Assembly (NCBI GenBank): GCA_903813345.2
Contig: CAIIXF020000009.1
Location: forward strand, 19,369,759-19,433,758
Direction: 5' to 3'
Length of the DNA: 64,000 bases
DNA from: Owenia fusiformis
Lineage: Eukaryota > Annelida > Polychaeta > Sabellida > Oweniidae
The notes under the pieces were generated by a model. It worked only from the letters and a program-made list of their open reading frames with translations, did no database searches and was not told the DNA's origin. The number at the start of each line of letters is the position of its first letter. Position 1 is the first letter of the stretch. Below, piece after piece: positions 2,824 to 53,025 of the stretch. The translations under genes were made by a program, and so were the position numbers.

Positions 2824-4388
2824 ATCCTATGCCAAGTAGAGTTTTAGGGAGATAAGTTGGTAAGATATATCCCGTATCCTGATTTTGAGCTTTCCATATC
2901 CAGAACCTCCATATCTCCCGCCATATCTCCCGCTTCGGTGCATATCTTCCCGCTTCGATGCATATCTTCCCGCTTCCGGTAAGTAGTGGAAATGCAATAA
3001 AATGACTTTGCATATGAATTGATTTGTTTATTTTTACACCTTGTACTATTGAAATGGCCATACGCCCCTGAAAACTCAACTTGGTATAGGATAAAGCAGT
3101 TATGTACAGTCGGTTTGGATATTGGGTGCATCCCTCGTGAGATATGCACATCTACCTTCGGTCCCTACTGTCCCTCAGGTAGATATGCATATCTCCCTCT
3201 GGATAAACCCCATATCCAAAACCTCCCAGTACATAACCCTTATATATTTCGTCACTTTAAAGAGGGAGAGATGAGTTAAATGTAACTTTAATCTTTTTCT
3301 CACAGCATCCTTGTCATCCTATTTTCTAAAGTTTAATTTTTTTCATAATTTCATGAATATACATGTTCTGCCTCACACTCTAAATTGCTGATGATATTTT
3401 CTTTCTCAAACATTATATGGAATTTGACTTGATTTCAAAAATGTATTGATCTAGCAATGTTTCCTTACAAGTAAAAAATGTACATGTTAATTCAAAACAT
3501 CCAGTAAATGTCTACAAATGGTTTGGATTTTTAAGTGGCCCTCTAATTGATTATATTTGGAGTTATGTCATAAAACTATGCAAAATGTGGTATCTAAACT
3601 ACCAACATACAAAGTGAAAGGGTTAACCATATATGACCATATAATATGTTGTGTGTCAAGGAGGGTTGGATCCCAGAATGCAATCTCAATATTTTCCAAC
3701 AATGAGTCCCATCTTGAAGGATGTCGTGATTACAGAATTTCAAATTCAGTGGCTGGCATTTTTTCATTTCAGAATTTGAATTACGAGTTACAGTATTATT
3801 TCCAAACAAAGAACTCCACAATACAATAAGTGATCAAAATATGAATTCAAATCTTTTGGATTGCTGATTATATATTTAGAGTCAGTTATTATAATGTTAG
3901 AATATAACAAGATTGGACTCATTGTTGGAAAATATAGAGATTGCATTTTGGGATCCAATCCTCCTTGTATGTTTAGGTACCTAAACACGGTTTGAAAATA
4001 TAAATATGCCTTGTACAATAAATAAGGGTTATGTACTGGGAGGTTTTGGATATGGGGTTTATCCAGAGGGAGATATTTATATCTACTTGAGGGACCGTAG
4101 GGACCGAAGGTAGATGTGCATATCTCACAAGGGATGAACCCCATATCCAAACCGACCGTACATAACTGCTTTATCCTATACCAAGTAGAGTTTCAGGGGC
4201 ATATGGCCATTTCAATAGTACAAGTTGTAAAAATAAAGAAATCATTCATATGCAAAGTCATTTTATTGCATTTCCACTACTTACCTGATGCGGGAAGATA
4301 TGGAGGTTTTGGATATGGAAACCTCAAAATTAGGATACAGGATATATCTTACCAACTTATCTCCCTAAAACTCTACTTGGCATAGGAT
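2824..4388. mobile_element. Large foldback element, inverted arms
   Basis: The outer ends ATCCTATGCCAAGTAGAG (2824) and its complement (ending 4388) match. Long stretches of 2824-3250 recur inverted at about 4018-4388, and 3655-3712 recurs inverted at about 3915-3968. The arms are rich in degenerate AGATATGCATATCTCCC-like words. About 400 bp (3250-3650) is present only on the left side, so one arm has gained or lost sequence. There is no coding capacity. Confidence 0.7.
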
Positions 4389-10686: not shown

Positions 10687-10833
10687 CGATTTCAAACTTT
10701 CAAATAACAAACTTTTTCGCGGTAAAACTTTTAGCCAATCAGGTTTCACGCACACATAGATCGATGACGTGATACACTAGTACACACATAAACATTTTTG
10801 AAAACATTTGATCAATTTCTCGCAAGTTTTTCG

Positions 10834-12415
10834 CATAGGAGACAGGTTACCTGAAAAGGAAGATAGATATCATTATCAAGGACTGAAACTGAGGCAAGTC
10901 TACCCTGGCTGAAATCAGCTCTGAAATAACAATTACTGCATGTCAAGCCGTCATTCAATGCTGATTTTGTAGAAAACAGATCTGTCCATCCTTCTACATG
11001 TGAGTTTTTCCCATAAAGATGCTTGATTAAGTAGAAATTCATCAAATTATACCCCTAGAATATCAAAGTTCAACTGTACATCAATCGCGTGAGGAAAAAA
11101 AACAAATCCATTCTTCACCTTCTGTTCACAAACCCTTCTTCTTCTTCTTGGAAAAGTTGTCCCTCATTTGACTAACAGCAAATGTGTATGTTTATGCAGC
11201 AATATATGTTAGTTTAGAAAATGATTAATTACAATCTTACCTGTACTTCACAGAAACATCCTAAGTATGAAAATATTTCACTAAAAATACATGCTTCCAT
11301 TTTGTCACATGTTCATAATAATTTACATATTGACCATGTGATGTTGACAGGGAGTGTAAACGCACCTAGCGTACAGGAAATATGTTATGATATTTATTAA
11401 GAAATTAGGTATGGTAATCATTATTACTTATTGTTTTAAGCCCCCAACCCACTTCACAAAGTTCATGAAGTACCAAGGAAAGACCAAATATTAAATAAAT
11501 TAGAAAAATTTGAATTTCCAAAAAAATCAAGTGGGCGATAATAGAGCCTCTGAAACATGGCAAAAGTGACATATTTTGTAATTTTCAATGCACTCCCGAT
11601 AATTATCTATCATTGTGTGCTTTCCACACCATATCAAACTTATATTATCTAAAAATAATGTATGTAATAAGTTAATGAAGGAAAAATTTAATGTTTCAGA
11701 GACTCTATTATCGCCCACTTGATTTTTTGGGAAATTCAAATTTTTCTAATTTATTTAATATTTGGTCTTTCCTTGGTACTTCATGAACTTTGTGAAGTGG
11801 GTTGGGGGCTTAATACAATAAGTAATAATGATTACCATACCTAATTTCTTAATAAATATCATTACATATTTCCTGTACGCTAGGTGCGTTTACACTCCCT
11901 GTCAACATCACATGGTCAATATGTAAATTATTATGAACATGTGACAAAATGGAAGCATGTATTTTTAGTGAAATATTTTCATACTTAGGATGTTTCTGTG
12001 AAGTACAGGTAAGATTGTAATTAATCATTTTCTAAACTAACATATATTGCTGCATAAACATACACATTTGCTGTTAGTCAAATGAGGGACAACTTTTCCA
12101 AGAAGAAGAAGAAGGGTTTGTGAACAGAAGGTGAAGAATGGATTTGTTTTTTTTCCTCACGCGATTGATGTACAGTTGAACTTTGATATTCTAGGGGTAT
12201 AATTTGATGAATTTCTACTTAATCAAGCATCTTTATGGGAAAAACTCACATGTAGAAGGATGGACAGATCTGTTTTCTACAAAATCAGCATTGAATGACG
12301 GCTTGACATGCAGTAATTGTTATTTCAGAGCTGATTTCAGCCAGGGTAGACTTGCCTCAGTTTCAGTCCTTGATAATGATATCTATCTTCCTTTTCAGGT
12401 AACCTGTCTCCTATG
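10834..12415. repeat. Near-perfect palindrome: 725-bp arms, 132-bp spacer
   Basis: Arm 10834-11558 is the reverse complement of 11691-12415 with no net insertion or deletion; every pair sums to 23249. I spotted only about four mismatches. The outer 550 bp of each arm is the module also found singly at 464-966. The same 70-odd-residue reading frame therefore occurs once per arm on opposite strands. The right arm ends 44 bp before the transposase ATG, so it may contribute promoter or leader sequence. Confidence 0.95.
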
Positions 12416-12459
12416 GTTTTTCGCTAAAATAAGTGAGTAAGTGACACGAACTTTTCAAG

Positions 12460-14220
12460 ATGGCTCGCGCAAATGATTTGCATGAACTATTCATGGGTGA
12501 GGATAGCGATGACGAGTTTTTAGGCTTCGTGGAGGCTGATATTCAGCACGATTTTGCTGATTTCGAGTCGGACTTAAGTGAAAGTGAAACTGAATCTAGT
12601 GAAAGTGATTCAGATTCAGATGAAGGTGGGGCTATTGGGGGTCGTAGGCCCATACCTACCGCATATTATCATCCGTGGCTAAAAGACTTTGAAGAGACAG
12701 TAGGCCCTAGAGATATGCCAGATGATTTGGATGAAACAAAGGTGTTTTGTTTGTTCATGAATGATGCAGTTATCATGGATATATTTGTTAGACAGACTAA
12801 TTTGTATGCTCAACAATTCATTGATAGTCATCCCAATCTACCAACTTACTCTCGTGCGCGTAACTGGAAGGAAGTAGAACTTCTCGAGATGAAGGCATTT
12901 TTAGCTATTATTTTACTTATGGGGGTTGACAAGCGATCATCCTACCAACTATATTGGAGTACAGACAATCTCATTGAGATGAAAGGATTCAGGAATATTA
13001 TGTCAAGAGATCGTTTTCTATCAATACTCATGTTTTTCCACCTGAATGACAACACCCAGGCTTTACCACGAGATCACGTAAATCACGATCGAGCCTTCAA
13101 GGTACGACCATTGATCGAAGCTCTTGTACAATTGTGGCAAAAACACTTTGTATGTAGTAAAGAAACTTCCATTGATGAATTTATGATACGTTTCAAAGGT
13201 CATACGTCACTCTTACAATACATGCCTGCAAAGCCTAATAAATGGGGAATCAAAGCATGGGGACTAGTTGATGCTCCCAGTGGCTACATGTGGAATTGGA
13301 GTCTGTATTTGGGGAAGGATGCAGGGGCAAGAGCCCGTCCAGATGATACCCCAGTCAGCCAGCATGTTGTGGTATCCTTGGCTACCCCATTGAGAAATCT
13401 TGGACACATATGTTTTATGGATAATTTCTTCAGCTCACCCGCAACATTCAAAGCATTAGAGGATATTCAAATTGGTGCCTGTGGAACCCTCTGTTGTAAT
13501 CGCCGTGGTGTACCAGACGTCATAAAAAATGCCAAGCCTAAATCGGGAGAGCCTGCTGTCACAGAACGGGATGGCAACACGCTGTACATTTCTTGGTTCG
13601 ACAAGAAGAATGTATCTCTAATGACATCTGTCCATTCAGCCATAACATATCGCAAACAAGTACGATCCAAAAGACATGATGGAAATTTCCGGGAAGTGGA
13701 TAAACCGGTAGCAATGCAGCAATATTCTATGAATATGGGTGGCATAGATCGTGCAGACAAAGCAATGACTTACTATATGATGCTACACAGATGTTCTAAG
13801 TGGTGGAAGAAGGTTTTTTTCTATCTTCTGGAGATTTGTTTCTGCAACAGTCTTATCATCTGGAGGCACCTGCATCCACGTACGCGAGTTGAGGCTGAGC
13901 AATTTAGACTGTCAATAGTACATGGCCTACTCAGTGGATATCAGCGCCCTCAACCCCTTGGACATGGTCGCGCAGCAACCAATCCTCCTGACCGCCTTAT
14001 AGGTGGGGATCACTTCCCATGTCTCAATCCCAAGAGAGTCGCAAGTGGAAAAAGAAGCAATCCAGACTGTATCGTTTGCTCTGATAGGACCCGTAAACGC
14101 CACCAAACTTCATACATGTGCCGAAAATGTGACCGACCAATGTGTCCTGTCCCCTGTTTCGAGCGGTACCATACGATGCTAAACTTCACCGTACCTTGTA
14201 CACCAGACCTCCACTTATAA
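12460..14220 (+). CDS. piggyBac transposase (PGBD4-like)
   Basis: A single 586-residue frame with no stops. Residues 1-60 are acidic and Ser-rich (MGEDSDDEF, ESETESSESDSDSD). A DDE_Tnp_1_7 catalytic core follows. Its expected aspartates are visible: D239 (SIDEFMIRFKGH), D321 (CFMDNFFSSP) and D430/D433 (GGIDRAD). The C-terminus carries the cysteine-rich zinc-binding domain, C537-X2-C540, C554-X2-C557, C562, C566 and H571. All parts needed for cut-and-paste transposition at TTAA sites appear present, so it may be or recently have been active. The ATG at 12460 is the first in frame after the palindrome. A polyadenylation signal AATAAA lies at 14407-14412. Domestication as a host gene is less likely, because the element ends are intact. 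Confidence 0.93.
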   Translation: MARANDLHELFMGEDSDDEFLGFVEADIQHDFADFESDLSESETESSESDSDSDEGGAIGGRRPIPTAYYHPWLKDFEETVGPRDMPDDLDETKVFCLFMNDAVIMDIFVRQTNLYAQQFIDSHPNLPTYSRARNWKEVELLEMKAFLAIILLMGVDKRSSYQLYWSTDNLIEMKGFRNIMSRDRFLSILMFFHLNDNTQALPRDHVNHDRAFKVRPLIEALVQLWQKHFVCSKETSIDEFMIRFKGHTSLLQYMPAKPNKWGIKAWGLVDAPSGYMWNWSLYLGKDAGARARPDDTPVSQHVVVSLATPLRNLGHICFMDNFFSSPATFKALEDIQIGACGTLCCNRRGVPDVIKNAKPKSGEPAVTERDGNTLYISWFDKKNVSLMTSVHSAITYRKQVRSKRHDGNFREVDKPVAMQQYSMNMGGIDRADKAMTYYMMLHRCSKWWKKVFFYLLEICFCNSLIIWRHLHPRTRVEAEQFRLSIVHGLLSGYQRPQPLGHGRAATNPPDRLIGGDHFPCLNPKRVASGKRSNPDCIVCSDRTRKRHQTSYMCRKCDRPMCPVPCFERYHTMLNFTVPCTPDLHL

Positions 14221-31307: not shown

Positions 31308-34300
31308 GTATATTTTTATTTTAGATTGAGGAATATTGTACAATTCACAGAAAGAACAATTATGAAGCGTTTGTCTACGTTTTCTATTAATTGAGAATGA
31401 GCTGAGATTTTGTATTCACTCATCCCTGTCTTAAGTCTCCCTTCTGTGGCTTGTGGCTTGACTTATCTCTAATTCCCTAAGGATCAATTTCTGAAATCAT
31501 CCAGATTTAATACATATCCCTGAATTCATATTTAATTGCTTTGACTGCTATTCATTTTAGATAGTGTGAAATATTGTTTGTATTTGTATTGACTTGGTAT
31601 TCAGATTTAATTGCTATAACTGTATTCATGTTAGATAGTGTGAAGTGTTTGTATTTGTATTGACTTGGTATTCAGATTTAATTGCTATAACTGTATTCAT
31701 GTTAGTACTCAAGGGGCGGGGAGGAAAATTCTCAATAAATGGTGTATAGTTGGTTTGGCAGCATTTTCAGTTAGGGGAGAGTCTTGGATGAAACTTCCAC
31801 CTAGGTGATAGCTTCACAGAGTGGTAGGAAGTTCTTTTTTTTTAGGAGTTAGCCCCCCACCCCCCAAAAACACCCCACCCGGGGAAAAAATTGTTCACAG
31901 TAAATAACCTTAGATATTTTGATGTTTGTAAGTGACATACATAGATATTATATATATGAATCATTTGCAGTATAATTGATGCTGATTGCTCCTAAGGAAA
32001 TTGAATATTAGTACAAAGTGTGTACCCCAGGGGGCAAATTCGTGACTCATTTTCTTACTATTTTGATCCTAACTTTTCAATTAGACACTGTAAGAGGTTG
32101 AAAAAATTCATGGGAAGTGCCCAATAGCAGGGTTGGTAAACCTGAAAGATGCAAAACCATTGAAAAGGTAGGAGCTGAGAAAAAAATTGTTGATTTTTCG
32201 AAAAATTTGACATTTTGACAGTTGGATTTTGTGTATGACTATAGCTGACCCCTATAGTTTCTAGATCCATCCCTCTATAATGATATTTATGGTTTTATAG
32301 TGTGAAACTAAGATGTAAAACATAATTTAGATGGGTTTTAAGGAAGTTAAAGGTTTTAAACAAGTCCAAAATTTGAAAAATTGTAAATATAAGGTTTAAA
32401 ATTTACATATTCCAGGTATAGCCATGGCTGACCCCTATAGTTTCTAGATCCATCCCTCTATGATGATATTTATGGTTTTGCCATGTGGAACTAATATGTA
32501 AAACACAATTTAGATGGGTTTTAAGAAAGTTTAAGGTTTTAAACAAGTCCAAAATTTGAAAAATTGTGAATATAAGGTTTTAAATTTACGAATTTCAGGT
32601 ATAGCCATGGCTGACCCTTATCGTTTTTACATCCATACCTCTATGATTAAATATACAGTTTTAGAGTGTGAGACTAAGATTTAACATATCCAAAATGAAT
32701 TTTAAGGAAGTTTAAGGTTTTAAACAAGTCCGAAATTTGAAAAATTGTAAATGTTAGGTTTCAAATTTATGAATTTCAGGTATAGCCAAAGATGACCCTT
32801 ATGGTTTTTACATCTATACCTCAGGGATGAAATATATAGTTTTAAGAGTATTTAACTAAAATGTAAAAGATACTTAAGATGAGTTTGAAGGAAGTTCAAG
32901 GTTTTAAACAAGTGCAAAATTTGAAAAATTGATCTCAAAATTGGTCTCAAATTCACATTATTCAGGTACAGCCTTGAATGAGCCCTGATAATTGAAGGTT
33001 ATGAGCATAATAGTATCAACAGTGATATCATAGCTTAGAGATCAGGTGTAGAATATATACCTGTTGCAGCAGTTAGTCTGCTGCATATAGATGGAGTGAA
33101 AAGTCGTGAACTACAGTAAAATCTCTCTAATCTGAATGCTACTGGTATTTGGACCAGCTAAAAGCATTCTAATTAGGAGTGTTTGAACAATACAATGTAC
33201 AATACAAGTTCTGGATTTTGAAGAAATATGAATGCATTCTCAATGAAATATATTAATAATATTAAACTTAATAGCATTCCAAAATCCAATTCAAAAGTTT
33301 TGATATCAAAACAATTCAGTGTTAAACTGACAATATTTGTGCAATTTTGTAAGAGATATGTGATATTTGGTAAAAAAAAAAGAGTTCAAGTTAGACAGGT
33401 TAATTTTTCAAATATGAGTCTTCACTGTTCGAAGTAAGAGGTATTCAGATTTCAATTTTTTAAACATAGGAGTCAATAGGAGGAAAAATTGGACTGGGAA
33501 AGTGTTCAGATTGGTTGGTGTTCAGATTAGTCAGGTGTTGGGATGATTGGTAGGTATTCACAATAGTTAGATGTTGGGATATACAGGTTTCAATAATGAT
33601 ATATCATTTATACAAGATGATGAACTAGAACTACTGTACTAGGTGCATTTGATAATTTTTACCACAATGTTAATACAATGTCAGGAAAAGAAAGCACCCA
33701 TGACACTTTGCTTGTACAACTTGAAAATCAACAACACTTTAAGATTTGATAAAGGTATCTACCAAATGAGTAATCCACATAAATTCAAATACAAGCACTT
33801 GGCATGCTATTCCCTATGATGCTATTTATAGATTTTTAGTCAATGTTATTGATCAGCTTATTGGTTTCATTACTTTCTCTAGAATCTAAAATTGACCTTG
33901 GGTTTATGAGAGTAGTAAATTGGAATGCAGTTATATGGAGTATTGAATAAACTATGATCTTATATGGATACAAACAGTTCGTTTGACAATGATCATCTAT
34001 CTTATCTGTAAAATCAGAACTTAATAGAAAGGGGTTTGAAATGGAGATCGATGTAACCATACCACAAACTGATAAAACTTTCGTGATCGATGCAATGGCT
34101 ATGACAAAAGGAAAATTAAGATGAACTTATATGTTGAAATTTGGAGAATTTTGGAAAGCTATATCTGACTACTCCATCAAATCTAGTAAAGGAGCCCAAA
34201 GAATAGATTTCATAGTAGACTCCATCAGTAAAGGATTCTGAAAGAATGCGAAGAATGGATGCTTCCCCTACTGAACTTTAATTCAAAGAAGAAATTACAC

Positions 34301-37300
34301 CATTACCTAAAAATATGAATACCCTTAGGCCAAGTCATATAGTACAAATTTTCAAAGATTACAAAGAAATTCAATAAAGCAGCATTCTAAAAGTGTGCCA
34401 AATGTCAAGATTGTTTTAGTAGAACTATTGGAGAGAACTCAAATATCTGTGAAAATGATAACTGAAATCCCCTGTTTAATTCCACTCTTGAAGAGGCTGA
34501 TTTTAAACTTATTCACTCTGTTTACATTCAGCAGGAGAACATGTGGGACTGCAGTAATTTGCATCAAATGATGCTGATTTTCTAATTTTATGACTATCAT
34601 TTCATTAAATGTAAAAAATTCTTCTACTGCTAGAAAATGTCATCTGCAAAGTCAGTATGTAGACATTTTCTACAATGTCTGTTTGTTTGAAACATATTGA
34701 TCATATATCACCATAGTATACTTTTTGATCTACATGAAGATTTTAGTGTGACAAGACCCTTTTATCCTGGAGTTCCTAATCTCATTGCACTAACGGGAGT
34801 TTCTAGGCCCAGCGGGGTATGATCCTTAAAATCCTTATTTTCCCAAATAATTACTGTTGCCTGATGACAAGTTGTTTTATTGGGAGTGTAGTATTATAAT
34901 TTGATAATTTATAATAATATTTTGTATTAGGAGATGATCATTGCTTAATTACAGTATGGGCATAACAAAATATAGAGAAATCATGTTTCTTTTAATTAAC
35001 CATGTCTTTATGTATTTTGACAATGTAGAACATTACATCGAACATTTTGATGTGAAAAAGTAAAAATGCTATATCACATAATAAATATCATCAAATAATA
35101 ATTAATTAGTTATAATCCATTTAATCAATCAATTACTACACTGTATACGATATCCCTAAGAGCAGTTACACTTTAGGGGGGGGGGGGATTTATTAACCTC
35201 TCACCCCCTTAGGAACTCTAGGATAAGGTCCTCAACTCTAATGATTTTTCTTTTAACAATACTTGTAACATGGATCAAACCTGACCACAATATTTTCAAC
35301 ATCTAATTTCTAGGCTAAAAAGTCATACATTCAAAAAGAGAGACATCCAAGGCAATACCTGAAATCGTAAAGGAGGACTGAAAGTATCGCATCAGATTTA
35401 GGACAGTCACGTGTTGGATTTTTGCTATTTTCTGAGGATTTGAGGAGGTGCATATGTTAGGCCAATGCATTTCCTCCAGGAAAAGCACTCATAGAGATGA
35501 TAAAATAATTTCTATTTGAGACAGGGTGCAAACAACCCACCCACATGCATCAATATGTTGTGTTTTGACACACAGTTAACCCCTTTATAGAAATAATGCA
35601 TTCCATCAGGGGTTTAAAAGATATCAAATATGGTTGACCAAAATTAAGCTGAAAGTAATGGAGCACATGAGTTTTCCCTATGGGAAAATAACAGGAAAAT
35701 ATTGTTTTCTGCTTTATCTAAAAGAAATTTATTATTCCTTTTTATGGGTAAACTATGTCTCAAAACGCAACATATTGATGCAACAAAAATTGAAAAAGCA
35801 GGGGTAAAAGGGCTTGAAAATCAGGACAACATTTCCGAAAAAACATGTGGGTGGATTGTTTGCACCTTCGCTGTCTCAAAGTCCAAACTATTTTATCATC
35901 TCTAAGAGTTCTTTTCCCGTAGGTTATGCAATGGCCTATCATATGCACCTGCTTAGATCCTCAGGAAACAGACAAAATCTAACATATGACTGTCTGAAAT
36001 ATGTTGCGATACTTTCCGTGCTCCTTTGAGACCTGATATTTCTCAATTTTTCAAACATTGCACTTGTTAAAATTCTTAAACTTCCTTAAAATTCATCTTC
36101 GGTATGTTTTACTTCTTGGTTTCACACTCTAAAAATATATGTTTCATGTTTAAAATCTTTAACTTCCTTAAAACCCATCTAAATTATGTTCTACATCTTT
36201 AGTTCCATATTACAAAACCATAAATATCACCAAAGAGGGATGGATTTAGAAACTATAGGGGTCAGCCATGGCTATACCTGGAATTCATAAATTTGAAACC
36301 TTATATTTACAATTTTTCAAATTTTGGACTTGTTTAAACCTTTAACTTCCTTAAAACCCATCTAAACTATGTTTTACATCTTAGTTCCACACTATAAAAC
36401 CATAAATATCATCATAGAGGGATGGATCTAGAACCTATAGGGATCAGCCATGGTTATACCTGGAATTCGAAAATTTGAAACCTTATATTTACAATTTTTC
36501 AAATTTTGAACTTGTTTAAAACCTTTAACTTCCTTAAAACCCATCTAAATTATGTTTTACATCTTAGTTCCACACTATAAAACCATAAATATCATCATAG
36601 AGGGATGGATCTAGAACCTATAGGGGTCAGCCATGGTTATACCTGAAATTCGTAAATTTGAAATCTTATATTAACAATTTTTCAAATTTTGGACATGTTT
36701 AAAACCTTTAACTTCCTTAAAACCCATCTAAATTATGTTTTACATCTTAGTTCCACACTATAAACTATAAATATCATCATAGAGGGATAAATCTAGAAAC
36801 TATAGGGGTCAGCCATGGCTATACCTGGAATTCGTAAATTTGAAACCTTATATTTACAATTTTTCAAATTTTGGACTTGTTTAAAACCTTTAACTTCCTT
36901 AAAACCCATCTAAATTATGTTTTACATCTTAGTTTCACACTGCAAAACCATAAATATCATTATAGAGGGATGGATCTAGAAATTATAATGGTCATCTATA
37001 GTCATACACAAAATCCAGCTGTCAAAAATGTCAAATTTTTCGAAAAATCAACAATTTTTTTCTCAGCTCCTACCTCTTCCATGGCTTTGCATCTTTCAGG
37101 GTTACTAACCCTGCTATTAGGCATTTCACATGAATTTTTCCAACCTCTTACAGAATCTAATTGAAAAGTTAGAATCAAAATAGTAAGAAAATGAGTCACG
37201 AATTTGCCCCCTGGGGTACATACTTTGTACTAATTTTCAAATTCTTTAGGAGTTATCAGCATCAATTATACTGCAAGTGATTCATATATATAATATCTAT

Positions 37301-40300
37301 GTATGTCACTTACAAACATCAAAATATCTAAGGTTATTTAGTGTAAACAATTTTTTCCCCAGGGTGGGGTGTTTTTGGGGGGTGGGGGGCTAACTCCTCA
37401 AAAAAAAGAACTTCCTACCACTCTGTGAAGCTATCACCTAGGTGGAAATTTCATCCAAGACTCTCCCCTAACAGAAAATGCTGCCAAACCAACTATACAC
37501 CATTTATTGAGAATTTTCCTCCCCGCCCCTAGAGTATAGATAGTGTGAAGTGTTTGTATTTGTATTGACTTGGTATTCAGATTTAATTGCTATAACTGTA
37601 TTCATGTTAGATAGTGTGAAGTGTTTGTATTTGTATTGACTTGGTATTCAGATTTAATTGCTATAACTGTATTCATGTTAGATAGTGTGAAGTGTTTGTA
37701 TTTGTATTGACTTGGTATTCAGATTTAATTGCTATAACTGTATTCATGTTAGATAGTGTGAAGTGTTTGTATTTGTATTGACTTGGTACTCATAACTTCA
37801 TAAGCAATACAGTGAAAAATAAACTTTGAAAACTGATCTTTAAACATTCTTTCAGAAATTCAATCTGTTCTTAAGCATTCATGATATATTGATATTTTGT
37901 AGTTATGACAACAAAGAATATGCCCCTAGGAACAGACAGGAGGACCCTAACAAGAACCAATGAAGTTGCCCCAATTATTATCAAAGTTGGGAAAGAGGAA
38001 TTCCAGCGTTTCACAGAATTCAAGGATCCGATTGTGTATGGAAGGATAGCTGACAATATGCCAGAACACCCTTTAGTCAAGGTACATTCACACTTAAGAC
38101 TTGGAACATTCACTCAATGATACATGTAGGCACATTTACACTTAAGGATAGCTGACAATATGCCAGAACACCCTTTAGTCAAGGTACATTCACACTTAAG
38201 ACTTGGAACATTCACTCAATGCTTCATGTTGGCACATTTACACTTAAGGATAGCTGACAATATGCCAGAACACCCTTTAGTCAAGGTACATTCACACTTA
38301 AGACTTGGAACATTCACTCAATGCTTCATGTAGGCACATTTACACTTAAGGATAGCTGACAATATGCCAGAACACATGTAGGTACATTTACACTTAAGCT
38401 AGGTACATGCACATTTTAGGCTAGATACCTTCACACTTTCAACTGGCTTAAAGGAATATTCCTTGCCAGACCCTTTCTCTCTTGATATGGTAGCTATAAT
38501 CATATATATAGTTTCCATATTTAGCAAAACATGGGAAAATGTTTTAATATGGTCAATATTGATCATTTAAAAATCTAGTGCTTATTTCCAGTGAGCTGCC
38601 ATCTTTTAAGATTTCTTGCAGGAAGTGATGTCATCAACTCTCAACTTTATAACCTTGCCCATAACAGTATAGGAAAGTAGCACAAAATCACTTCTAGACA
38701 ACTGATCATTACTTTCTGTGCAAAAATATTTTCAGGGCTTGTCAACTTAGAATAAAAGAAGAGATTTTCAGAAGGATTAAATAAGACACAAAGTTGAAAA
38801 AGAATATTTAGCTGGTTTTGTTATTCTTAATAGCTCCTCACCTAATGCTATATGCAAAGTTGAAAGTCGATGACATCACTTCCTGTGTGAAATTTTAAAA
38901 GATGGCAGCTTACTGGAATTGAGCATCACATACTAAGTGATCAAATTTGACCATATCAAAACATTTTTGCGTGTTTTGCTAAACATGGCAAGCATATATA
39001 TGGTTATAGCTACCATATGAGGAGAGAGATGGATTGGCAAGGAATATTCCTTTAACATTCTTTTTGTAGGCTTACATGTAGATACATTCCATCGAGGCTA
39101 AATGTATAGCCAAAATAACAATTCATCATGGAAAATGTTGAAAGTGTATTTTTAAATAACATTTTTGAATTTCAGAACAAATATTTCCTTGTGAAAGATT
39201 TCCATCCTGGTATGGATAAGCTGGGTACAATGGAGACATATCAAGCACCAAATGTACGTAAAGCACAGGGCAGTTTCCCTGTGTATGGCATGGGACAGCC
39301 CACAAAGGACAGCCTTAGTAACATGTTGGAGCTCTTGCACTCTGGAGGACACTCAGTAAGTGTTTTTTTAAAATGTACGTTAAGCACAGGGCAGTTTCCC
39401 TGTGTATGGCATGGGACAGCCCACAAAGGACAGCCTTAGTAACATGTTGGAGCTCTTGCACTCTGGAGGACACTCAGTAAGTGTTTTTTTTTAAATGTAC
39501 GTTAAGCACAGGGCAGTTTCCCTGTGTATGGCATGGGACAGCCCACAAAGGACAGCCTTAGTAACATGTTGGAGCTCTTGCGCTCTGGAGGACACTCGGT
39601 AAGTTTTTTTTTTAAATACATATGTGTAAAGTTTCTTCTTATTTCCATGTGTGTCAAATTACTTATTAAATATTTTCACACTGATACACTTATTAAAAGT
39701 GTCTTGTGTTATCAATGTATATAATTCAATGTTACTTTCCAAAATCGATATATTCTGCAAGTGATTTTCCAAAAACTTGAAGCAGAATTCCGTCAATAAT
39801 TCAAATTACTTGATTAGTAAAGTATAATTACATATAATCTGTGAGCAATTTCCACAAAAAAATTATATATTCTGGAAGTAATTTTCCAAGAACTTGAAGC
39901 AGAATTCCATAAATAATTCAAATTACATGTACTTGATTAGTAAAGTATAATTGCAAAAACTCATATATTCTGTCAGCAATTTCCACAAAAAAATTATATA
40001 TTCTGGAAGTAATTTTCCAAGAACTTGAAGCAGAGTTACATCAATAATTCAAATTACTTGATTGCTAAAGCATAATATTTCTTTGTATGGTGCTGTATCA
40101 GTCTGGCAATAAGCCCATATACCAGCTCCACTTCTCCTGTGTAAGAGAGATATTAAGGGAGGGGTGCAGACTGTACAGGGGTTATGCAAGACTATTGATG
40201 CTGAAACACACAACCCAGTCAAATAACATTAGGAACTATCCATAATTCAGATCAATGAAACAATGGTTGCCCTTATGATGTTAATATAATGATTTAAATC

Positions 40301-46300: not shown

Positions 46301-49300
46301 AAAAATAAAACAAGAGGTAATGCTCCCATTTGGCCACCCTTGGCAAGAGCTTCGCATTGTTTGGACTCTAAGAATAAGAGTAATTCTTTGATTTGGTCTG
46401 TGTTCAAACAGTATAAGAAATTGTGATATTTCATTTTTGCTGACATTCAGTGGAATTTCAGTCTTCATAAAAGGGCCTCTTTTGTTTTCTTTATATTACT
46501 TTTTAAAAATTGTGGTGTTGATTTTATACAAAACAAACAATTTATTGTTTCATAAAAATTGACAATAACCTCTCTTGTGATATATCATTAAGGAAATGCA
46601 GAACAAGTGTCAGGTTTTGGGGTACAACTCCCAGCAATATAAATAAATAAAATAAAAATTTTTAATCTGCTCATTTTGTCAGATACCCCTGGGATCGCAC
46701 ACATTAATGTTCCATTCTTTTATTATTGTGTGAATTATATATGGTTGATATGACAAAATATGTGAACAATGCTACCAGGTTGATGTGACAATAGACATGT
46801 GTGGAGAGCTGAATAATCTGATAGATGAGCTCCACAAAGCTAAAGAAACACTTGAGGAGATAGAAACTGATTATATAATACAAGTGAGTGATTTAGAAAT
46901 GACTTTATTATCCAAGTGAATCATTTAGAAAATGACTTTATATTCGTGATTAGAAACTGACTAAATATAATACAACAGTGATTTAGAAACTGATTCTATA
47001 AAACAAGTGATCTAGAAACTGACTAAGTTGCTGATTAGAAACTGACAGTAAAAATCCTTTGAATGATTTAGAAATTTAATGATACAAAGTAATTTATCTC
47101 ATCTTCATTTGAAAAAAGCCCCCGCTGAACACAGTAGAGATGTGATACATTCGATAAAACATCTTTCGTTTGTGTTGTAGGGTGAAAGTGCCATGAGTTA
47201 CTTTAGAGAAAAATGTGTCAACTATCTGGAGAGGTACTTTTATCTGATTTGCTTCAATGCCTACTTGCATGACCAGGTGAGACGCTAAAATACGGCTAAG
47301 ACCCTTGACAATGAAAAGTGAACAAAAAGTTGAAAACAGATTTGTGTGTTTTGATAAAAATATGCCAATTTAATCAAGGATAGAGTAGATGGTAATATTA
47401 CATCGTGACATACACACATTCATAAAGATAGTGTTCTTTGGGATTTGCTAATTTGTGGAGTTGCTCCGATTCCTACTTTAGGTTTAGTCAGTTGGTCTTG
47501 GAAGTCTGAAAAATGTTTCACTAACCGAGTTGTTCCACTTAACAGGTTTCACTGTATACAATTCTTCATGATTTCCATGGTGCCTCAGCCTGTCAGCATT
47601 ATTGATAACCTCTCAATAATCAACCTGATTAAACATATGATTATCTTTTTAGCCTAATCAATATAATCCACAGTAAAATATGTTTAAATCATGTTCATTA
47701 GTATTAATTTTATTCTTATTTTCAGTTTGTGAAGCTCCTCTCTATAAGCTTCTCCCAGTGGATGAAGCAGCATCCTTATATCTACCACTTGTTTAGCAAT
47801 CTAGACATATCATGCAGGACAATTTCATCCGAGCTGCTACTGAATAATCAACATTTCCTGGTAAGTTTGCAATACAGCAAATAGCTTTATTTGCAGCTTA
47901 TTGAAACGCAATAGAGGGGAAATATGGGGCGTGGTTAAAGTATCAAATATGGAAAAAGAGCAATTTATTTTACAATTTCATAATTGTACTATATTAATTA
48001 GGAGAATAAAACAATAAAACATGAAAGTCACAGATAACAAATTATGTAGCTAAGATGTTCCAGATTTTCACATCTTGTGACAGATTTAATGTTTTCCCTG
48101 TCTGTTAAATGCCTTGCGTATTCATCTACTGTGTTCTTTGAAAGCACAATGTAGATGGCCAGGAATTAATACTTTGTGCAAATCCTTATGTGACCAGAGG
48201 TTCAGATCCCCACTCGTATACTCGTAATTTATGAGTAATTTGTCAAATACGAGAAATAATTTAAAAATACTTGCCATTCGTACGAGTATTTTTTTTCTGA
48301 GGATCTGAAACTATGTATGTGTCATAAGCACAGGGTGGGATTGAAAATTTTTTAACTCAGACACAACGTGTGTGGTTTGACAGTATCCCAAATAACTTTT
48401 CCATTGTTTGTTTTTTACACAATAGGTTGCAGATGACTACTGGGGCTTAGATGTGTTGAGCTCACAGATGGACGTGAAAGTGTCAAACTTCAGGAGAATC
48501 CCTTCTTTACCTGTATATGGCAGTGCACAACCATCTCGTGAGGTATTGGCACCGTAGTCTTATTTGTTTAACACTAAATCACACACATTTTCATCATCTG
48601 TTAGGGCAGCTAGGCCAAATACTTTTCATTAAAGCAGATATGAAATGGTATTTTTAACCTAAAGGAATCAAAATAATTTTTTGATAGATGTATTTGGACA
48701 TGTTTTCTCATCAGTAGTGTGAAAACTATTTCACTCTAACGATCGTTATAGCTGCTTAATAAGCAATATTCGAATTGGTTGTGACGTTATTGGCCCCCAC
48801 GTGATCTCTCACTGGTCCCCACGTGGCCCGTAATATGGTCCATTAGATCATGACGGCATAATGCCAAAATGTTTTGTTATTTGTTTACACAACAATCCTT
48901 GGTTGCCGTGACGTTGTGATTACTATGGAACCAATAAACCAAAGCTATATTTTGTATATGACGTTACTAATCACGTGGGGGCCAATTTGATTTATCGGTT
49001 AGTTTTATTTCGTTATCTATGACCGTTAGCAGTTATCTAACATTTATTTTATAATGGCTATCGCAAGAACTCTACAATGGGCTTACAATGGAGAAAACCG
49101 CATTTTTGTAGCTGCAAGTTGAGAAAAGCTATTTCAGTTGTCCTTTAAATTTTTTGGAAGCAGATTTTTTTCGAAAATAAATATATTTAATTAGTGTCAA
49201 ATCTCTACACAGGGTCTATCTTGCGTGATGAAATATTTGACCAGCAAGAAGCTTGGTCATCCAAAGGTGGTTCTAGTCAACCTGAGAGAAGACATGGTAC

Positions 49301-52300
49301 TGGAATGTGATGCGCAGACATTTAGCCCTCGTGATATCAATAACCTTGAAGAGCCAGTCATAATGCCAGATATTTCTGGCAGTGAAATTGAGGTATGCAA
49401 TATGTCAATTACTGATGGTTATGTATAGATTTATTATCCTAAAATGTTGCCTTTTCAGGCAAAATTGGTCTCAGGAACCAATAATAATTGTCAGGTTCCT
49501 TTTCTTCATTTAAAAGACAATTTTACATCACATTTGTTTTTGAATGGATGATCTTGCACACATGTACACATGTAAGAGGCTCTATTTCAGGCTAAAGAAA
49601 ATGAGATGAAGAATGTAGTGAAACCTAAGAAATCATTCCAAATCTACACAGATCTGTCTGAGAGTTCAGATAGTGTTGAGTTCAGTAGTGTGTTAACACC
49701 TCTAGAGATGTTCAATCAGCAATGCATACAGACCCCTCAACTTGTATATCACAGGATACCCATATCTGATGATGCAGCACCTAAAGAAAAAGTAAGACCC
49801 TCTACCAGTTGGCTGCTATTTAATTCCAAAGGTTATACAGATTCAGAGACTTTCCAAGATGGCGGCATTTCATTTTGAATATTGTACTTTGATATCTGAT
49901 ATATATATATTTTTTGTTGTTGACAATATTAGTTCATCCGTTCATTCATTAATTGGAATCTATGGTATATCATATTCATGGTATTTAAAACTTAAGTTTC
50001 CTTTTGCCTTTTTCTGACCTAAAACGGATTGTCAGCATTGGTTCCAATGTTTTCAAGGAATCATACATCACTAGTTGGTTACATTTTAGAGGATTCAGCT
50101 TCTTTGAGATTTTTTATGCGATATTCAATGCTTATAATACCATCTATTGGCAGTTCTCTTGGTTATTAGTGCATTTTAGGGAGTTATACATTCAGAATAT
50201 GTATAATTGCAGAACTTTGATCAGATCATGGCACTGCTGAATAACATTGAAGAGATCTACACAGATGAAGATGGCCCAGCCTTGTTGTTTCATTGCCGTA
50301 CAGGAAAGGGGCGGACAACCACAGCCATGGCTATTGCGGGCCTGATCATATGTCATAAAAAGGTTGGTCCAATTTTTTAAATTCCAAAATGTATTTATAG
50401 TTCAAAATCATGTGATACCGTAATGATAAATCAAATGGTTATTTGCTACCTTTCAATTAGATAATAACATTTTTTTAAGAAAGATCATGTTACTTTGATT
50501 TGAAGCTTTTGGTGGCTGGGCATACAAAATGTCAGTAACACTATAGAATAAAAAGTATTCAATTAATAGTTAAAATATAGTTACCCTTTTAAATACACTT
50601 AGAAATATATAAATGACATTTTGTGATCAATCACTTGAACAATCTTTAAAATCATTGAAATTAAACTTAATAGTACAGTAGCAACTGTATGTCTTAAAAT
50701 AATGATTTTTATGTTGTATGCAATATACATGGTAGATATATATGGTAGAGACAGGATTCTTATATCAAAGTAACAGTTTATATGTCATTTGAAGAATGTA
50801 ATCCTATTTTCTTTACTTTATTGCTATGTTTACTGTTATTGAAAACTGTATATCGGATGTACGTTTGGCCCTAAAAGGCCATCAGTACTAATAAAATCCT
50901 ATTATTAACCTAGAGTGAATATAGCAGCTAAAGCGTATCTTATTCCAGGGGTTCCCCTATGGTACAAAACCTGGAGAGCAGGAATTGGTCTCTTGCCCCA
51001 ATGCAACATACACAAAAGGAGAGTTTCTAGTAAGTGGACTGTGTATTGTTTCACATATGAAAACAAATCATGCAGTAAGGTTAAGACGTCAATTTGAAAT
51101 ATTATTGTTAGAAATATTTAACTGAAGAAAGATTTTGAACTTTATTATGCTTTCTTCACACAAATTTTATTTGTAGATTGTTCAGCGGCTGGTCCGCATG
51201 ATTCCTAATGGTCAGCAGATGAAGCGTGAAGTTGATTTCATGCTTGACCAATGTTCAGAGACAATGACTCCAATGCATTACCATGTGAGAGAAGTGATAT
51301 TTGTCACATACAATAAAGTAAGTTACAAATCACATACAATAAAATTAATTTCATCATCATCAAGGAAACGTCCAATCACACGCAATGGGGTTAAATCCTT
51401 TAAAATACAATTAAGAAAACTTCAATCACATACAATAAAGTTGACTGTATTAGCATACAATATAATTCCAATCATATACAATGAAGATAATTCTATAAAC
51501 ATACAATAAAGAATCATACCAATCACAAACCAAAATTGTACCAGCCACATACAATAAAATCCATTATTTAAACATACAATTAAGAAAATTCCAACCTACT
51601 AGTTTGTTCCAATCAAATACCATGAAGTTAATCCCAGTAACAAAAATAATGTAAATGCCAATATGTTATGGCTTGATGATCTTCCAGATGAAGAAGGCCA
51701 AAACTGATGAAGACAGAGAGGAACTGAAGTTAAAGAGTCTGCAGTACTTGGAGCGCTATCTATATCTTATTCTATTCAACACATATCTACATGCTGAGAG
51801 AAGGAACCATTATGAGAGATCATTCACTCGGTGGATGAAAGAGGTGAAAACATTCAACTGTTAAGTCTTGAAATTATTAAGTTCTGTACCCCCATTCACT
51901 CTCTACTACTAGCTGAGTAAGGAAATAGATGAGGGTGATTCGATTCTCTCTACCTCATGATGTGTAGAGAAATAGATGAGGGTGACTCCATTCTTTCTAC
52001 CACAGGCTGGGTCGAGAAATAGATGAGAATGACCCTATTCTTTCTACCATAGGATGGGTTGAGAAATAGTTGAGGGTGACCCCATTCTCTACCAAATGCT
52101 GGGTCGAGTAATAGTTGAGGGTGACCCCATTCTTTCTACCACATGCTGGGTCAAGAAATAGATGAGAATGACCCTATTCTTTCTACCATAGGATGGGTTG
52201 AGAAATAGTTGAGGGTGACCCCATTCTCTACCAAATTCTGGGTCGAGAAAAAGATGAGGGTGACCCCATTCTTTCTACCATAGGTTGGGTTGAGAAATAG

Positions 52301-53025
52301 ATGAGAATGACCCTATTCTTTCTACCATAGGATGGGTTGAGAAATAGTTGAGGGTGACCCCATTCTCTACCAAATGCTGGGTCGAGAAAAAGATGAGGCT
52401 GACCCCATTCTTTCTACCATAGGTTGGGTTGAGAAATAGTTGAGGGTGACCCCATTCTCTACCAAATGCTGGGTTGAGAAAAAGATGAGGGTGACCCCAT
52501 TCTCTCTACCACAGGTTGGGTTGAGAAATAGATGAGGGTGATCATGATAAACCAAGACATGCAACCCTACACAGGATCTCATCTTTATCTACACTTAAAT
52601 TATCAGCAGTTCTTTGATCTAGCCTATATCCAATGAAAATATGTAGTTGAAAGTCATGACACTACATTTTCTCTCTTTAGGTACTTTATTTTCACCCAAA
52701 CTCAAAAAGCATTAATATAAATCATCTGTAATTATCACACATGCATGCATAATTTGTGTCTCGCTGATGGAGATCTGATGTGGCATAGAAGTGATGAATG
52801 TCAGAATACAATGTTAACTATTGGGAGTACCCAGGTGTAAAATACAAAATACAATGGTACTAAAGGTTCTCATAATTCCAGGTTGGCTCAAGAGCAGGCG
52901 TGTATGAAGTACTTGATGATATAGCTTTCACTGACTTTGAAAGTGTTAACTCAAAAATGCTGAGGACACGACGTGCACGTTGGAAGCAAGTACCAAAGTT
53001 GCCTTTCAGAGGAAAATTTATATAG
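31193..53025 (+). CDS. PALD1: Paladin (phosphatase domain-containing protein), 19 coding exons
   Basis: Joined exons give about 882 residues, close to vertebrate paladin (about 860). The protein has two similar halves. Each runs VYGxxQP, then VNLREExVL, a CX5R-type phosphatase loop, and LERYxYLIxFNxYLH. The first loop reads SHTGEGR (S315-R321): catalytic Cys is replaced by Ser. The second is intact, CRTGKGR (C687-R693). The N-terminus MGSGASSS fits an N-myristoylation signal, as in vertebrate paladin, so membrane attachment is expected. In vertebrates paladin regulates receptor and phosphoinositide signalling in endothelium; the role here is unknown. All 18 introns are GT-AG and every phase closes. 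Intron 1 (6.6 kb) holds a large transposon. Introns 2, 3, 9 and 17 hold arrays derived from the preceding exon. The stop is at 53023-53025. Confidence 0.93.
31560..31705. repeat. 71-bp satellite, left part (2 copies)
   Basis: Units of GATAGTGTGAAGTGTTTGTA and TTCAGATTTAATTGC. The array is interrupted by the transposon at 31706 and continues at 37537. Confidence 0.9.
34037..34580 (+). pseudogene. Decayed ORF in the transposon core, EEAD-type uncharacterised family
   Basis: Conceptual + strand translation gives segments broken by stops and frameshifts: TFVIDAMAM (about 34079), FGEFWKAISDYSIKSSKGAQ, RIDFIVDSI, then in another frame STLEEADFKLIHSVYIQQEN (about 34484). From memory, a large uncharacterised invertebrate protein family has the order VIDxMA, RIDVVFD, EEADTRxxLH. 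I offer that as the likely relative, without a search. The copy is non-functional. Confidence 0.4.
35369..36027. mobile_element. Foldback element nested in the 5.8-kb transposon
   Basis: Ends AAAGGAG (35369) and CTCCTTT (ending 36027), with GAAAGTATCGCA mirrored just inside. Internal pairs such as CAAACAACCCACCCACATG and CATGTGGGTGGATTGTTTG are also mirrored. Its right edge abuts the right arm of the host element. Confidence 0.65.
37537..37790. repeat. 71-bp satellite, right part (4 copies)
   Basis: Same unit and orientation as 31560-31705, ending about 110 bp before paladin exon 2. Confidence 0.9.
37903..38081 (+). CDS. PALD1: Paladin coding exon 2
   Basis: Residues 38-97. Acceptor TTTTGTAG; donor AAG|GTACAT. 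It contains EVAPIIIKVGKEEFQRF and GRIADNMPEHPLVK, both conserved at this place in paladin. Its last 39 bases are duplicated in the following intron. Confidence 0.93.
38043..38400. repeat. Tandem array built from paladin exon 2 3' end and donor
   Basis: The 103-bp unit starts GGATAGCTGACAATATGCC and includes the last 39 coding bases, the GTACAT donor and 60 bp of intron. Three nearly identical copies and a truncated fourth follow the genuine exon end. Confidence 0.93.
38451..39052. mobile_element. TA-flanked foldback MITE in paladin intron 2
   Basis: AAGGAATATTCCTTGCCA at the left is mirrored at the right end, with TA on both sides (38449-38450, 39053-39054). Arms of about 200 bp include GATGTCATC, GATGGCAGC-like and CAAAACAT words in mirror order. 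No ORF. Confidence 0.85.
39176..39355 (+). CDS. PALD1: Paladin coding exon 3
   Basis: Residues 98-157. Contains YFLVKDFHPGMDKLGTM and FPVYGMGQPTKDSLSNML. Acceptor TTTCAG, donor TCA|GTAAGT. The 3' 104 bases plus donor are repeated twice more downstream. Splicing at a downstream donor would shift the frame into a stop near 39437. Confidence 0.93.
39252..39615. repeat. Tandem array built from paladin exon 3 3' end and donor
   Basis: The 121-122 bp unit starts ATGTACG(T/A)AAGCACAGGG, includes 104 coding bases, the GTAAGT donor and a poly-T stretch. Three copies; the first is the real exon. Copies differ by only a few bases, so the duplication is recent. Confidence 0.95.
39740..40075. repeat. About 125-bp tandem repeat, intron 3
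   Basis: Three copies containing TATATTCTG, AATTTTCCAAGAACTTGAAG and TAATTCAAATTAC. Intronic. Confidence 0.85.
40902..41069 (+). CDS. PALD1: Paladin coding exon 4
   Basis: Residues 158-213. ILVLNLREEPVLFLKDG followed by MVTYSPR and AIRKE, the conserved first-half module. Acceptor TTACAG, donor GAG|GTACAG, phase 0. Confidence 0.93.
43135..43490. repeat. About 55-60 bp tandem repeat, intron 4
   Basis: Seven copies of AAGAAAAAGTTTTAAAAT... ACCTTGGAATATTAGTC. At 43598-43675 an 18-bp repeat (AGTACCATAGACCTAAAC) occurs four to five times. A GATTGATTGGTTGGT simple repeat lies at 41900-42000. Confidence 0.9.
44164..44333 (+). CDS. PALD1: Paladin coding exon 5
   Basis: Residues 214-270 (last codon split). 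Contains YYVAYEDFISISDEVYQRH, matching the acidic segment before the first phosphatase loop in paladin. Donor CAG|GTGAGA. Confidence 0.9.
44688..44901. repeat. Pair of CAGGGTGTCC element ends facing each other
   Basis: TTTCGGGACACCCTG (ending 44697) and CAGGGTGTCCCGAAA (from 44892) are inverted with their outer termini pointing inward. They look like the right end of one element and the left end of another, rather than one complete copy. Partner ends were not found. Intron 5. Confidence 0.5.
45234..45309 (+). CDS. PALD1: Paladin coding exon 6
   Basis: Residues 270-295. LQRLCFPTDGAPSEEDFDTL, equivalent to the YHRLPLPE-type segment before the loop. Too short to appear as a simple ORF; placed by phase and similarity. 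Confidence 0.88.
45638..45783 (+). CDS. PALD1: Paladin coding exon 7 (first phosphatase loop, Cys lost)
   Basis: Residues 296-344. Reads LFTSHTGEGRATVGMVIGYL. Ser codon TCA at 45695-45697 stands where the catalytic Cys of CX5R belongs; Arg (AGG) at 45713-45715 is kept. Acceptor TTTCAG, donor AT|GTATGT. Confidence 0.9.
45955..46140. repeat. About 30-bp tandem repeat, intron 7
   Basis: Six to seven units of AATGACATCTTTTCGAGCCT plus GGGACT. Confidence 0.9.
46205..46316 (+). CDS. PALD1: Paladin coding exon 8
   Basis: Residues 344-381. Contains GEFTAIVELIKYLSNGPKIK, the helix after the first loop. Donor GAG|GTAATG. Confidence 0.88.
46779..46883 (+). CDS. PALD1: Paladin coding exon 9
   Basis: Residues 382-416. 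VDVTIDMCGELNNLIDEL then KETLEEIE, a charged helical stretch. Donor CAA|GTGAGT. The exon 3' end seeds a degenerate repeat in the next intron. Confidence 0.88.
46862..47060. repeat. Degenerate array derived from paladin exon 9 end and donor
   Basis: The exon end TAGAAACTGATTATATAATA followed by CAAGTGAGTGATT recurs as TTAGAAACTGATTCTATAAA-CAAGTGA and shorter variants, about five times at 35-45 bp spacing. Confidence 0.75.
47181..47276 (+). CDS. PALD1: Paladin coding exon 10
   Basis: Residues 417-448. Contains YLERYFYLICFNAYLHDQ, the module closing the first half of the protein; mirrored in exon 18. Confidence 0.92.
47726..47860 (+). CDS. PALD1: Paladin coding exon 11
   Basis: Residues 449-493. 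SFSQWMKQHPYIYHLFSNL; conserved linker between the halves. Donor CTG|GTAAGT. Confidence 0.9.
48426..48542 (+). CDS. PALD1: Paladin coding exon 12
   Basis: Residues 494-532. Contains DVKVSNFRRIPSLPVYGSAQ, opening the second half; compare exon 3. Donor GAG|GTATTG. Confidence 0.92.
48780..48990. repeat. Inverted repeat carrying CACGTG boxes, intron 12
   Basis: TTGGCCCCCACGTGAT (about 48790) is mirrored by ATCACGTGGGGGCCAA (about 48970). A third CACGTG lies between them. TGACGTTA flanks both. Probably the ends of a small MITE. Confidence 0.6.
49213..49392 (+). CDS. PALD1: Paladin coding exon 13
   Basis: Residues 533-592. KVVLVNLREDMVLECDAQTF; compare exon 4. Acceptor ACACAG, donor GAG|GTATGC. 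Confidence 0.93.
49591..49791 (+). CDS. PALD1: Paladin coding exon 14
   Basis: Residues 593-659. It includes a Ser/Lys-rich insert (NVVKPKKSFQIYTDLSESSD), then LTPLEMFNQQ and LVYHRIPISDDAAPKEK, the segment just before the second loop. Confidence 0.92.
50213..50362 (+). CDS. PALD1: Paladin coding exon 15 (second phosphatase loop, intact)
   Basis: Residues 660-709. LLFHCRTGKGRTTTAMAIAG. Cys codon TGC at 50294-50296 and Arg CGG at 50312-50314 form a canonical CX5R. The general-acid Asp is not obvious, as in other paladins, so activity is unproven. Confidence 0.93.
50790..50905 (-). repeat. Dispersed repeat, copy B (intron 15)
   Basis: Reverse-complement copy of 27879-28000: contains GGATGTACGTTTGGCCC and AATAAAATCCTATTATTA. 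It ends 45 bp before exon 16. Confidence 0.75.
50949..51029 (+). CDS. PALD1: Paladin coding exon 16
   Basis: Residues 710-736. GFPYGTKPGEQELVSCPNAT followed by YTKGEFL, as in other paladins. Short exon defined by TTCCAG acceptor and CTA|GTAAGT donor with matching phases. Confidence 0.9.
51177..51317 (+). CDS. PALD1: Paladin coding exon 17
   Basis: Residues 737-783. Contains VDFMLDQCSETMTPMHYHVR, highly conserved in paladin. Ends CACATACAATAAA|GTAAGT; that junction is repeated through the next intron. Confidence 0.93.
51300..51660. repeat. Degenerate array derived from paladin exon 17 end and donor
   Basis: The exon junction GTCACATACAATAAA|GTAAGTT recurs as AATCACATACAATAAAGTTG and decayed forms about seven times at roughly 45-50 bp spacing. 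Confidence 0.75.
51688..51843 (+). CDS. PALD1: Paladin coding exon 18
   Basis: Residues 784-835. LQYLERYLYLILFNTYLHAE; compare exon 10. Donor GAG|GTGAAA is weaker than most. Confidence 0.92.
51918..52555. repeat. About 47-bp tandem repeat, intron 18
   Basis: Thirteen or so units of GAGAAATAGATGAGGGTGAC and CCCATTCTTTCTACCA. Alternating variants form a higher-order pattern. Not derived from the adjacent exon. Confidence 0.93.
52882..53025 (+). CDS. PALD1: Paladin coding exon 19 (last)
   Basis: Residues 836-882 and stop TAG. VGSRAGVYEVLDDIAFTDFE matches the paladin tail (AGIYEIL). The basic end (RTRRARWKQVPKLPFRGKF) has no close counterpart I recall. Confidence 0.88.
   Translation, partial: VGSRAGVYEVLDDIAFTDFESVNSKMLRTRRARWKQVPKLPFRGKFI

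Follow-up and report, generated by a model that had tools for sequence, protein, structure and literature searches.

A decayed splice-junction minisatellite in a paladin-like gene of the annelid Owenia fusiformis and its probable origin in unbiased tandem duplication

Tandem arrays that repeat the end of an exon together with its donor raise the question of whether a mechanism aimed at 5' splice sites generates them, or whether duplications arise throughout a gene and selection filters those that happen to fall on a junction. The question is posed by the window (that is, the whole stretch of 64,000 nucleotides of O. fusiformis DNA analysed here), in which a sequence-only reading had noted that the exon 17/intron 17 junction of a paladin-like gene recurs about seven times in decayed form and that introns 2, 3, and 9 bring the number of such cases in this gene to four, and had proposed a mechanism that favors exon-intron junctions, such as slippage or R-loop-linked replication restart at 5' splice sites.

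The gene lies on the + strand, at about 31.1 to 53 kb of the window. Its exons 12-18 join into a single open frame of 342 residues that is continuous over the exon 17/18 junction, and the joined protein matches the Pfam family PTPlike_phytase (E 9e-32) over residues 61-211, that is, upstream of exon 17. The Pfam match supplies the family only; the name paladin is an assumption shared with the sequence-only reading, and a PDB search returned five phosphatase or phytase chains, with no paladin among them. Exon boundaries were set by eye, those of exons 1, 10, and 19 being approximate. Exon 17 (51177-51317, + strand, 141 bp) ends in CACATACAATAAA, followed by gtaagt of the intron, and the array was presumably founded by the final 13-14 bases of this exon. 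The junction 15-mer CACATACAATAAAGT occupies 51305-51319, with the last exon base at 51317 and the donor gt at 51318-51319. Intron 17 (51318-51687, + strand, 370 bp) runs from gtaagt to cttccag and is filled nearly completely by the array. The reading across the exon 17/18 junction (...VTYNK/MKKAK...) and its spacing would fit vertebrate paladin; hence, the exon copy of the junction unit is probably ancestral. Elsewhere in the window, a 591-codon open frame at 12445-14217 may encode a piggyBac transposase, and two similar frames in opposite orientation lie upstream of it, at 10815-11054 (-) and 12195-12437 (+).

Recurrence of the junction in intron 17 far exceeds what base composition would give. 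Within 51320-51687, CACATACAATAAAGT has seven matches with at most three mismatches (mean 0.10 and maximum 2 in 1000 dinucleotide shuffles), in agreement with the count first noted, and nine with at most four (mean 0.62, maximum 4). A wraparound decomposition resolved these into a decayed, junction-derived array with a 25-bp unit at 51304-51662 (+ strand), comprising the exon copy and about 14 intronic units, so that the array described earlier (about seven copies over 51300-51660) is real but its size had been understated. The intronic part alone (51331-51659) scored 316 in the wraparound alignment vs. 102 for shuffles (sd 11.5, maximum 134, n=60), and the exon copy is identical to the first 15 bp of the array consensus. 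The exact 15-mer CACATACAATAAAGT has six matches genome-wide, two of them here, with the reversed control pattern also having six. The mean pairwise identity of the units is 0.66, a value that refers to 13 of the 14 intronic units, with the worst (at 51355) excluded and single inserted bases omitted from the alignment. TRF did not report the array at a score of 40 or of 36, and "decayed" is therefore the right word for it; it is also older in the sense first suggested, i.e., more diverged than the arrays of introns 2, 3, and 9.

Two other sources for the intron 17 array were considered and rejected. A dispersed repeat or transposon does not fit because a single genomic place was found: a DNA search of the genome (525 contigs, 498 Mb) with 51318-51660, which gives a lower bound, found no second place. 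Direct repeats at both intron borders, as described by Rogers and Bendich 2025 (PMC11782384), do not fit either, since the array ends at 51662, 25 bases before the end of the acceptor at 51687, and the two splice sites of the intron are thus not both repeat-derived.

The arrays of introns 2, 3, and 9 likewise have units that contain an exon end and the adjoining donor, so that all four cases in this gene are real. The intron 2 array (38042-38438, + strand) has a 102-bp unit and carries the donor TCAAG/gtacat in three copies (at 38082, 38184, and 38286), with copies two and three being 97 and 98% identical to copy one. The intron 3 array (39250-39617, + strand) has a 121-bp unit with 106 bp from the exon (97% identity by TRF), with donor copies at 39356, 39477, and 39599. 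The intron 9 array (46861-47026, + strand; donor at 46884) has a unit of about 32 bp and is partly decayed; TRF reported it in two parts, 46861-46942 and 46946-47026, with units of 32 and 29 bp and identities of 80 and 77%. By eye, the units of these three arrays are unrelated to each other, and we have therefore counted the arrays as separate events. Exons 9 (46779-46883) and 17 are, also by eye, counterparts of each other in the two protein halves; each precedes an exon reading ...YLERYxYLIxFNxYLH and each ends in phase 0, and the donor of each bears an array, the two arrays being unrelated in sequence. The same gene offers a comparison case in an array in the middle of intron 18 (51922-52541, + strand, 47/92/139 bp), clear of all splice sites. 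Intron 1 contains arrays of a 183-bp unit at 32244-32951 and 36147-36994, in mutually opposite orientation, and also two arrays of 71 bp (31524-31705 and 37537-37792) that share one orientation.

The four arrays differ in how well their decoy donors have kept. The donor copies of introns 2 and 3 score at least as high as the true donor; in intron 9, the true donor scores 9.3 and the others 5.0 and 4.1; and in intron 17, the true donor scores 8.1 and the best other GT 3.5. That is, the copies are strong in introns 2 and 3, weaker in intron 9, and gone in intron 17, a sequence that drift of the intronic copies, with retention of the exon copy, would predict. The open frame of exon 2 (37893-38117) closes ahead of the second donor copy at 38184, and that of exon 3 (39119-39436) ahead of the second copy at 39477; hence, a full-length protein would come from the first donor only, and the mRNA presumably uses that donor, judging from the reading frames.

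We favor the hypothesis, at a probability of roughly 80%, that the intron 17 array is an aged splice-junction minisatellite (a "mirage") derived from unbiased tandem duplication that was filtered by selection. Under this hypothesis, a segment of about 25 bp, with 13 bases from the end of exon 17 and some 12 from the start of the intron, would have been duplicated in tandem, and ordinary minisatellite turnover, by slippage or unequal exchange, would have expanded it until the intron was full. Such duplications would arise throughout the gene, with no aiming at donors required, and those straddling a splice site would persist where the exon-proximal copy preserves both splicing at that site and an intact reading frame. 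Selection would hold the exon copy and its donor, and the intronic copies would drift and lose their decoy donors. Both the mechanism of duplication and its direction, from exon to intron, are inferred.

To place paladin against other genes, we assembled a sample of dynein heavy-chain loci, i.e., of one gene family, with gene models built in-house by conservation among loci. A family search gave 97 matches, from which 18 loci were taken in 29 pieces of 10 kb (290 kb). Overlapping candidate exons were merged with the best kept, giving 250 called exons, each backed by at least three other loci; four calls within the array of one locus (L009) and two exons of at most 25 bases were dropped, leaving 244. 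The junction test compared a 35-base probe per junction with the neighboring intron sequence (at most 600 bases) at a cut-off of z>6, against a null of 50 shuffles per junction probe and 30 per mid-intron control, with a floor on the standard deviation; 15 donors scoring at most 4, 21 acceptors scoring at most 0.5, and flanks shorter than 60 bases were excluded.

Junctions recurred in the dynein loci at 3/227 donors, 5/220 acceptors, and 19/516 mid-intron probes (Fisher p 0.50 for donor vs. acceptor and 0.10 for donor vs. mid-intron), and in paladin at 3/18 donors, 0/18 acceptors, and 7/51 mid-intron probes. Intron 17 reached z 4.2, under the cut-off, and was entered by hand in the Fisher tests as a fourth paladin donor on the basis of the decomposition; so counted, paladin donors (4/18) vs. 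acceptors gave p 0.10 and donors vs. mid-intron p 0.46, and the pooled comparison gave p 0.77 for donors (7/245) vs. acceptors (5/238) and p 0.33 for donors vs. mid-intron (26/567). The mid-intron probes were placed three per intron and are not independent, so that their p values are rough; none indicates an excess at donors. The 19 dynein mid-intron matches fall in 10 of 172 introns, including that of the L009 donor array (two matches), and the seven paladin matches fall in 5 of 17 introns, two of these matches lying within the intron 9 and intron 17 donor arrays. Paladin exceeds the dynein loci in its donor rate (intron 17 included; p 0.0006) and also in its mid-intron rate (7/51 vs. 19/516, p 0.005). 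Matches at z 4 to 6, beyond these counts, were seen at dynein donors of L007, L003, and L008 and at an acceptor of L004. An earlier version of the test on 180 kb, paladin included, had given 6/183 donors, 3/176 acceptors, and 8/168 mid-intron probes at z>6; it is superseded by the present one, which has more sequence, more mid-intron probes, and the standard-deviation floor.

A placement test gave a similar answer. The gene spans, with that of paladin, cover 228,237 bases and contain 173 TRF arrays (score at least 36, period at least 8); seven of these arrays overlapped donors vs. 14.3 expected under random placement and three overlapped acceptors vs. 14.4; with the 60 arrays scoring at least 80, the values were 7 vs. 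12.5 and 3 vs. 12.5, respectively. In paladin alone, 3.45 donor overlaps were expected and three found by TRF, and 3.37 acceptor overlaps were expected and none found. Paladin donor overlaps being near the random expectation, no special mechanism is needed for them in so array-rich a gene; the odd part in paladin is the absence of acceptor cases, which has a probability of 0.0155 under random placement (at least three donors with no acceptor occurred in 0.4% of 2000 trials), these probabilities coming from a null that takes no account of selection and a gene that was picked for its arrays. In the sample, as distinct from the genome at large, arrays thus overlap donors no more often than chance, and the donor-targeted mechanism put forward by the sequence-only reading is not supported.

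Nine junctions in the 290 kb of dynein sequence have a boundary-spanning duplication, four at donors and five at acceptors, of which five are multi-copy and four two-copy. By eye, the copies that follow a dynein exon end in L009 bring the donors to 11 in total, 41 bp apart, and L016 has a 59-bp array with seven strong donors and a 30-bp array with seven donors, the second junction of this locus being probably modelled one unit too late. L004 carries, at 3678-3961 (gene orientation), a young two-copy 140-bp duplication of the 3' part of a dynein exon with its donor; exon calling took the second copy for an exon, the donor duplication is absent from the junction test even at z>4, and the TRF count lists the locus as both donor and acceptor although by eye it is a donor case. 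At acceptors, L008 has an array with a unit of about 80 bp at one junction and an older duplication in two copies at another; two copies span an acceptor in L017; and L011 has a two-copy duplication of about 150-160 bp plus a short-unit array, the latter case (at 5975) being supported by about a dozen exonic bases. In another gene family, twelve tandem matches to one myosin-head stretch (profile residues about 18-84) at G000:C9:37986009-37994334 are probably the alternative-exon bank of a muscle myosin heavy-chain gene.

Alternatively, birth might be equal at the two kinds of splice site and survival unequal, with donor-spanning arrays being better tolerated than acceptor-spanning ones, which we consider rather unlikely as an account of the data. 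The reasoning behind it, which we hold with equal reserve, is that the exon-proximal donor is transcribed first and wins, whereas upstream acceptor copies would be met first and spoil the message. The TRF counts lean this way (seven donors vs. three acceptors, one of the three, L004, really being a donor case), as do the four donors vs. no acceptor in paladin, and the shortfall of both kinds of overlap relative to random placement is what selection would yield. However, the dynein junction test found five acceptors and three donors, and the pooled difference between the two is not significant (p 0.77).

Donor-biased birth, in which R-loops, transcription-replication conflict, or slippage at 5' splice sites would seed arrays from exon ends, appears improbable. 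It draws on the 4/18 donors (intron 17 by decomposition) vs. 0/18 acceptors in paladin and on the higher donor rate of this gene relative to the dynein loci. The dynein loci themselves, where donors recur no more than acceptors or mid-intron probes, speak against it, as do the donor overlaps at about half of the random expectation (7 vs. 14.3) and the duplication of both 5' and 3' boundaries described in the amphioxus report (PMC3087553).

A function of the repeated exon tail in splicing, as decoy donors or enhancer copies, is highly improbable. The observation in its favor is that, within the intron 17 unit, conservation is 0.80 in the exon-derived half vs. 0.69 in the intron-derived half (p 0.005, comparison over the whole intronic array), which is not simple neutral decay. 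Nonetheless, the other seven arrays lack a consistent trend: the difference is not significant for intron 9 (p 0.24) or for intron 3 (p 0.27), runs opposite to intron 17 for intron 2 (p 0.04), gives p 0.34 for L009 and p 0.60 and 0.06 for the two arrays of L016 (the 0.06 in the opposite direction), and favors the intron part in the L008 acceptor array (p 0.04). Better conservation of exon-derived columns was accordingly rejected as a general rule, and the decay of the decoy donors in introns 9 and 17 also argues against a function. Just as improbable is that the array came first and a cryptic donor within it was recruited for exon 17, since the exact match of the exon copy to the 15-bp start of the consensus is set against an exon 17 in frame with exon 18 at a spacing that presumably fits paladin, and against L009, where the copied exon tail matches at least three other dynein loci and the exon is therefore the source.

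The structure of the arrays has a precedent. The amphioxus "mirage" minisatellites of the Adh3 and globin genes have units that span an exon-intron boundary, at either boundary, with lengths of 10-72 bp in Adh3 and 150-160 bp in the globin genes, and comprise many copies with splice signals, suggested to be a source of new introns (PMC3087553). The units of introns 2, 3, 9, and 17 are alike in comprising exon sequence, splice site, and intron sequence, their lengths (25, about 32, 102, and 121 bp) fall within the 10-160 bp range, and donor and acceptor boundaries are both involved here too, acceptors only outside paladin (L008, L017, and L011). Mirages are further marked by length polymorphism or somatic instability and by regular splicing in spite of the copies; for paladin, the analysis covered one assembly and, as to splicing, the reading frames. 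The paladin arrays are hence of the same kind as the amphioxus mirages, with intron 17 an aged member that is, at 0.66 pairwise identity, far more decayed than amphioxus BflGb6 (81-100%; PMC3087553). The haemoglobin linker domain, an annelid domain, gave three matches in the present genome, all above the family cut-off, and none in 14 control genomes; GFP and molluscan haemocyanin gave no match here but none in any control genome either, so that their absence does not follow, and COX1 gave no match here but did so in 8 of the 14 control genomes. The reported mirages are from cephalochordates and the present arrays from an annelid; no second report of such arrays was found in the literature searched, most subscription papers being outside its reach. 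Intron gain by tandem duplication, described for potato RdRp, ATP2A1, and fission yeast (PMC4974935), likewise involves coding sequence with splice signals duplicated in tandem, but the paladin copies lie inside an intron that has its own acceptor, and the repeated junction is AAAGT rather than AGGT. Closer in host group are published annelid introns with minisatellites (mean units of 178 and 181 bp, within the first intron, with exon duplicates missing from the transcript); the passages on them do not describe a junction-spanning unit.

In conclusion, boundary-spanning tandem duplications, although named from amphioxus, are not rare curiosities in this genome, and a striking cluster of them within one gene is by itself no proof of a targeted mechanism. 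More tentatively, and with the odds somewhat against it, the genome may continually grow, at real junctions, tandem series of 3 to 11 near-identical donors, as well as some ladders of acceptors, with donor ladders surviving better because the first donor wins. If so, the genome would be a natural experiment on splice-site choice, and the decay of the decoys would date the arrays from introns 2 and 3 (young) through intron 9 to intron 17 (old). Duplicated splice sites of differing ages provide a natural series for how the spliceosome chooses among identical sites, and such series also bear on the lengthening and the gain of introns.
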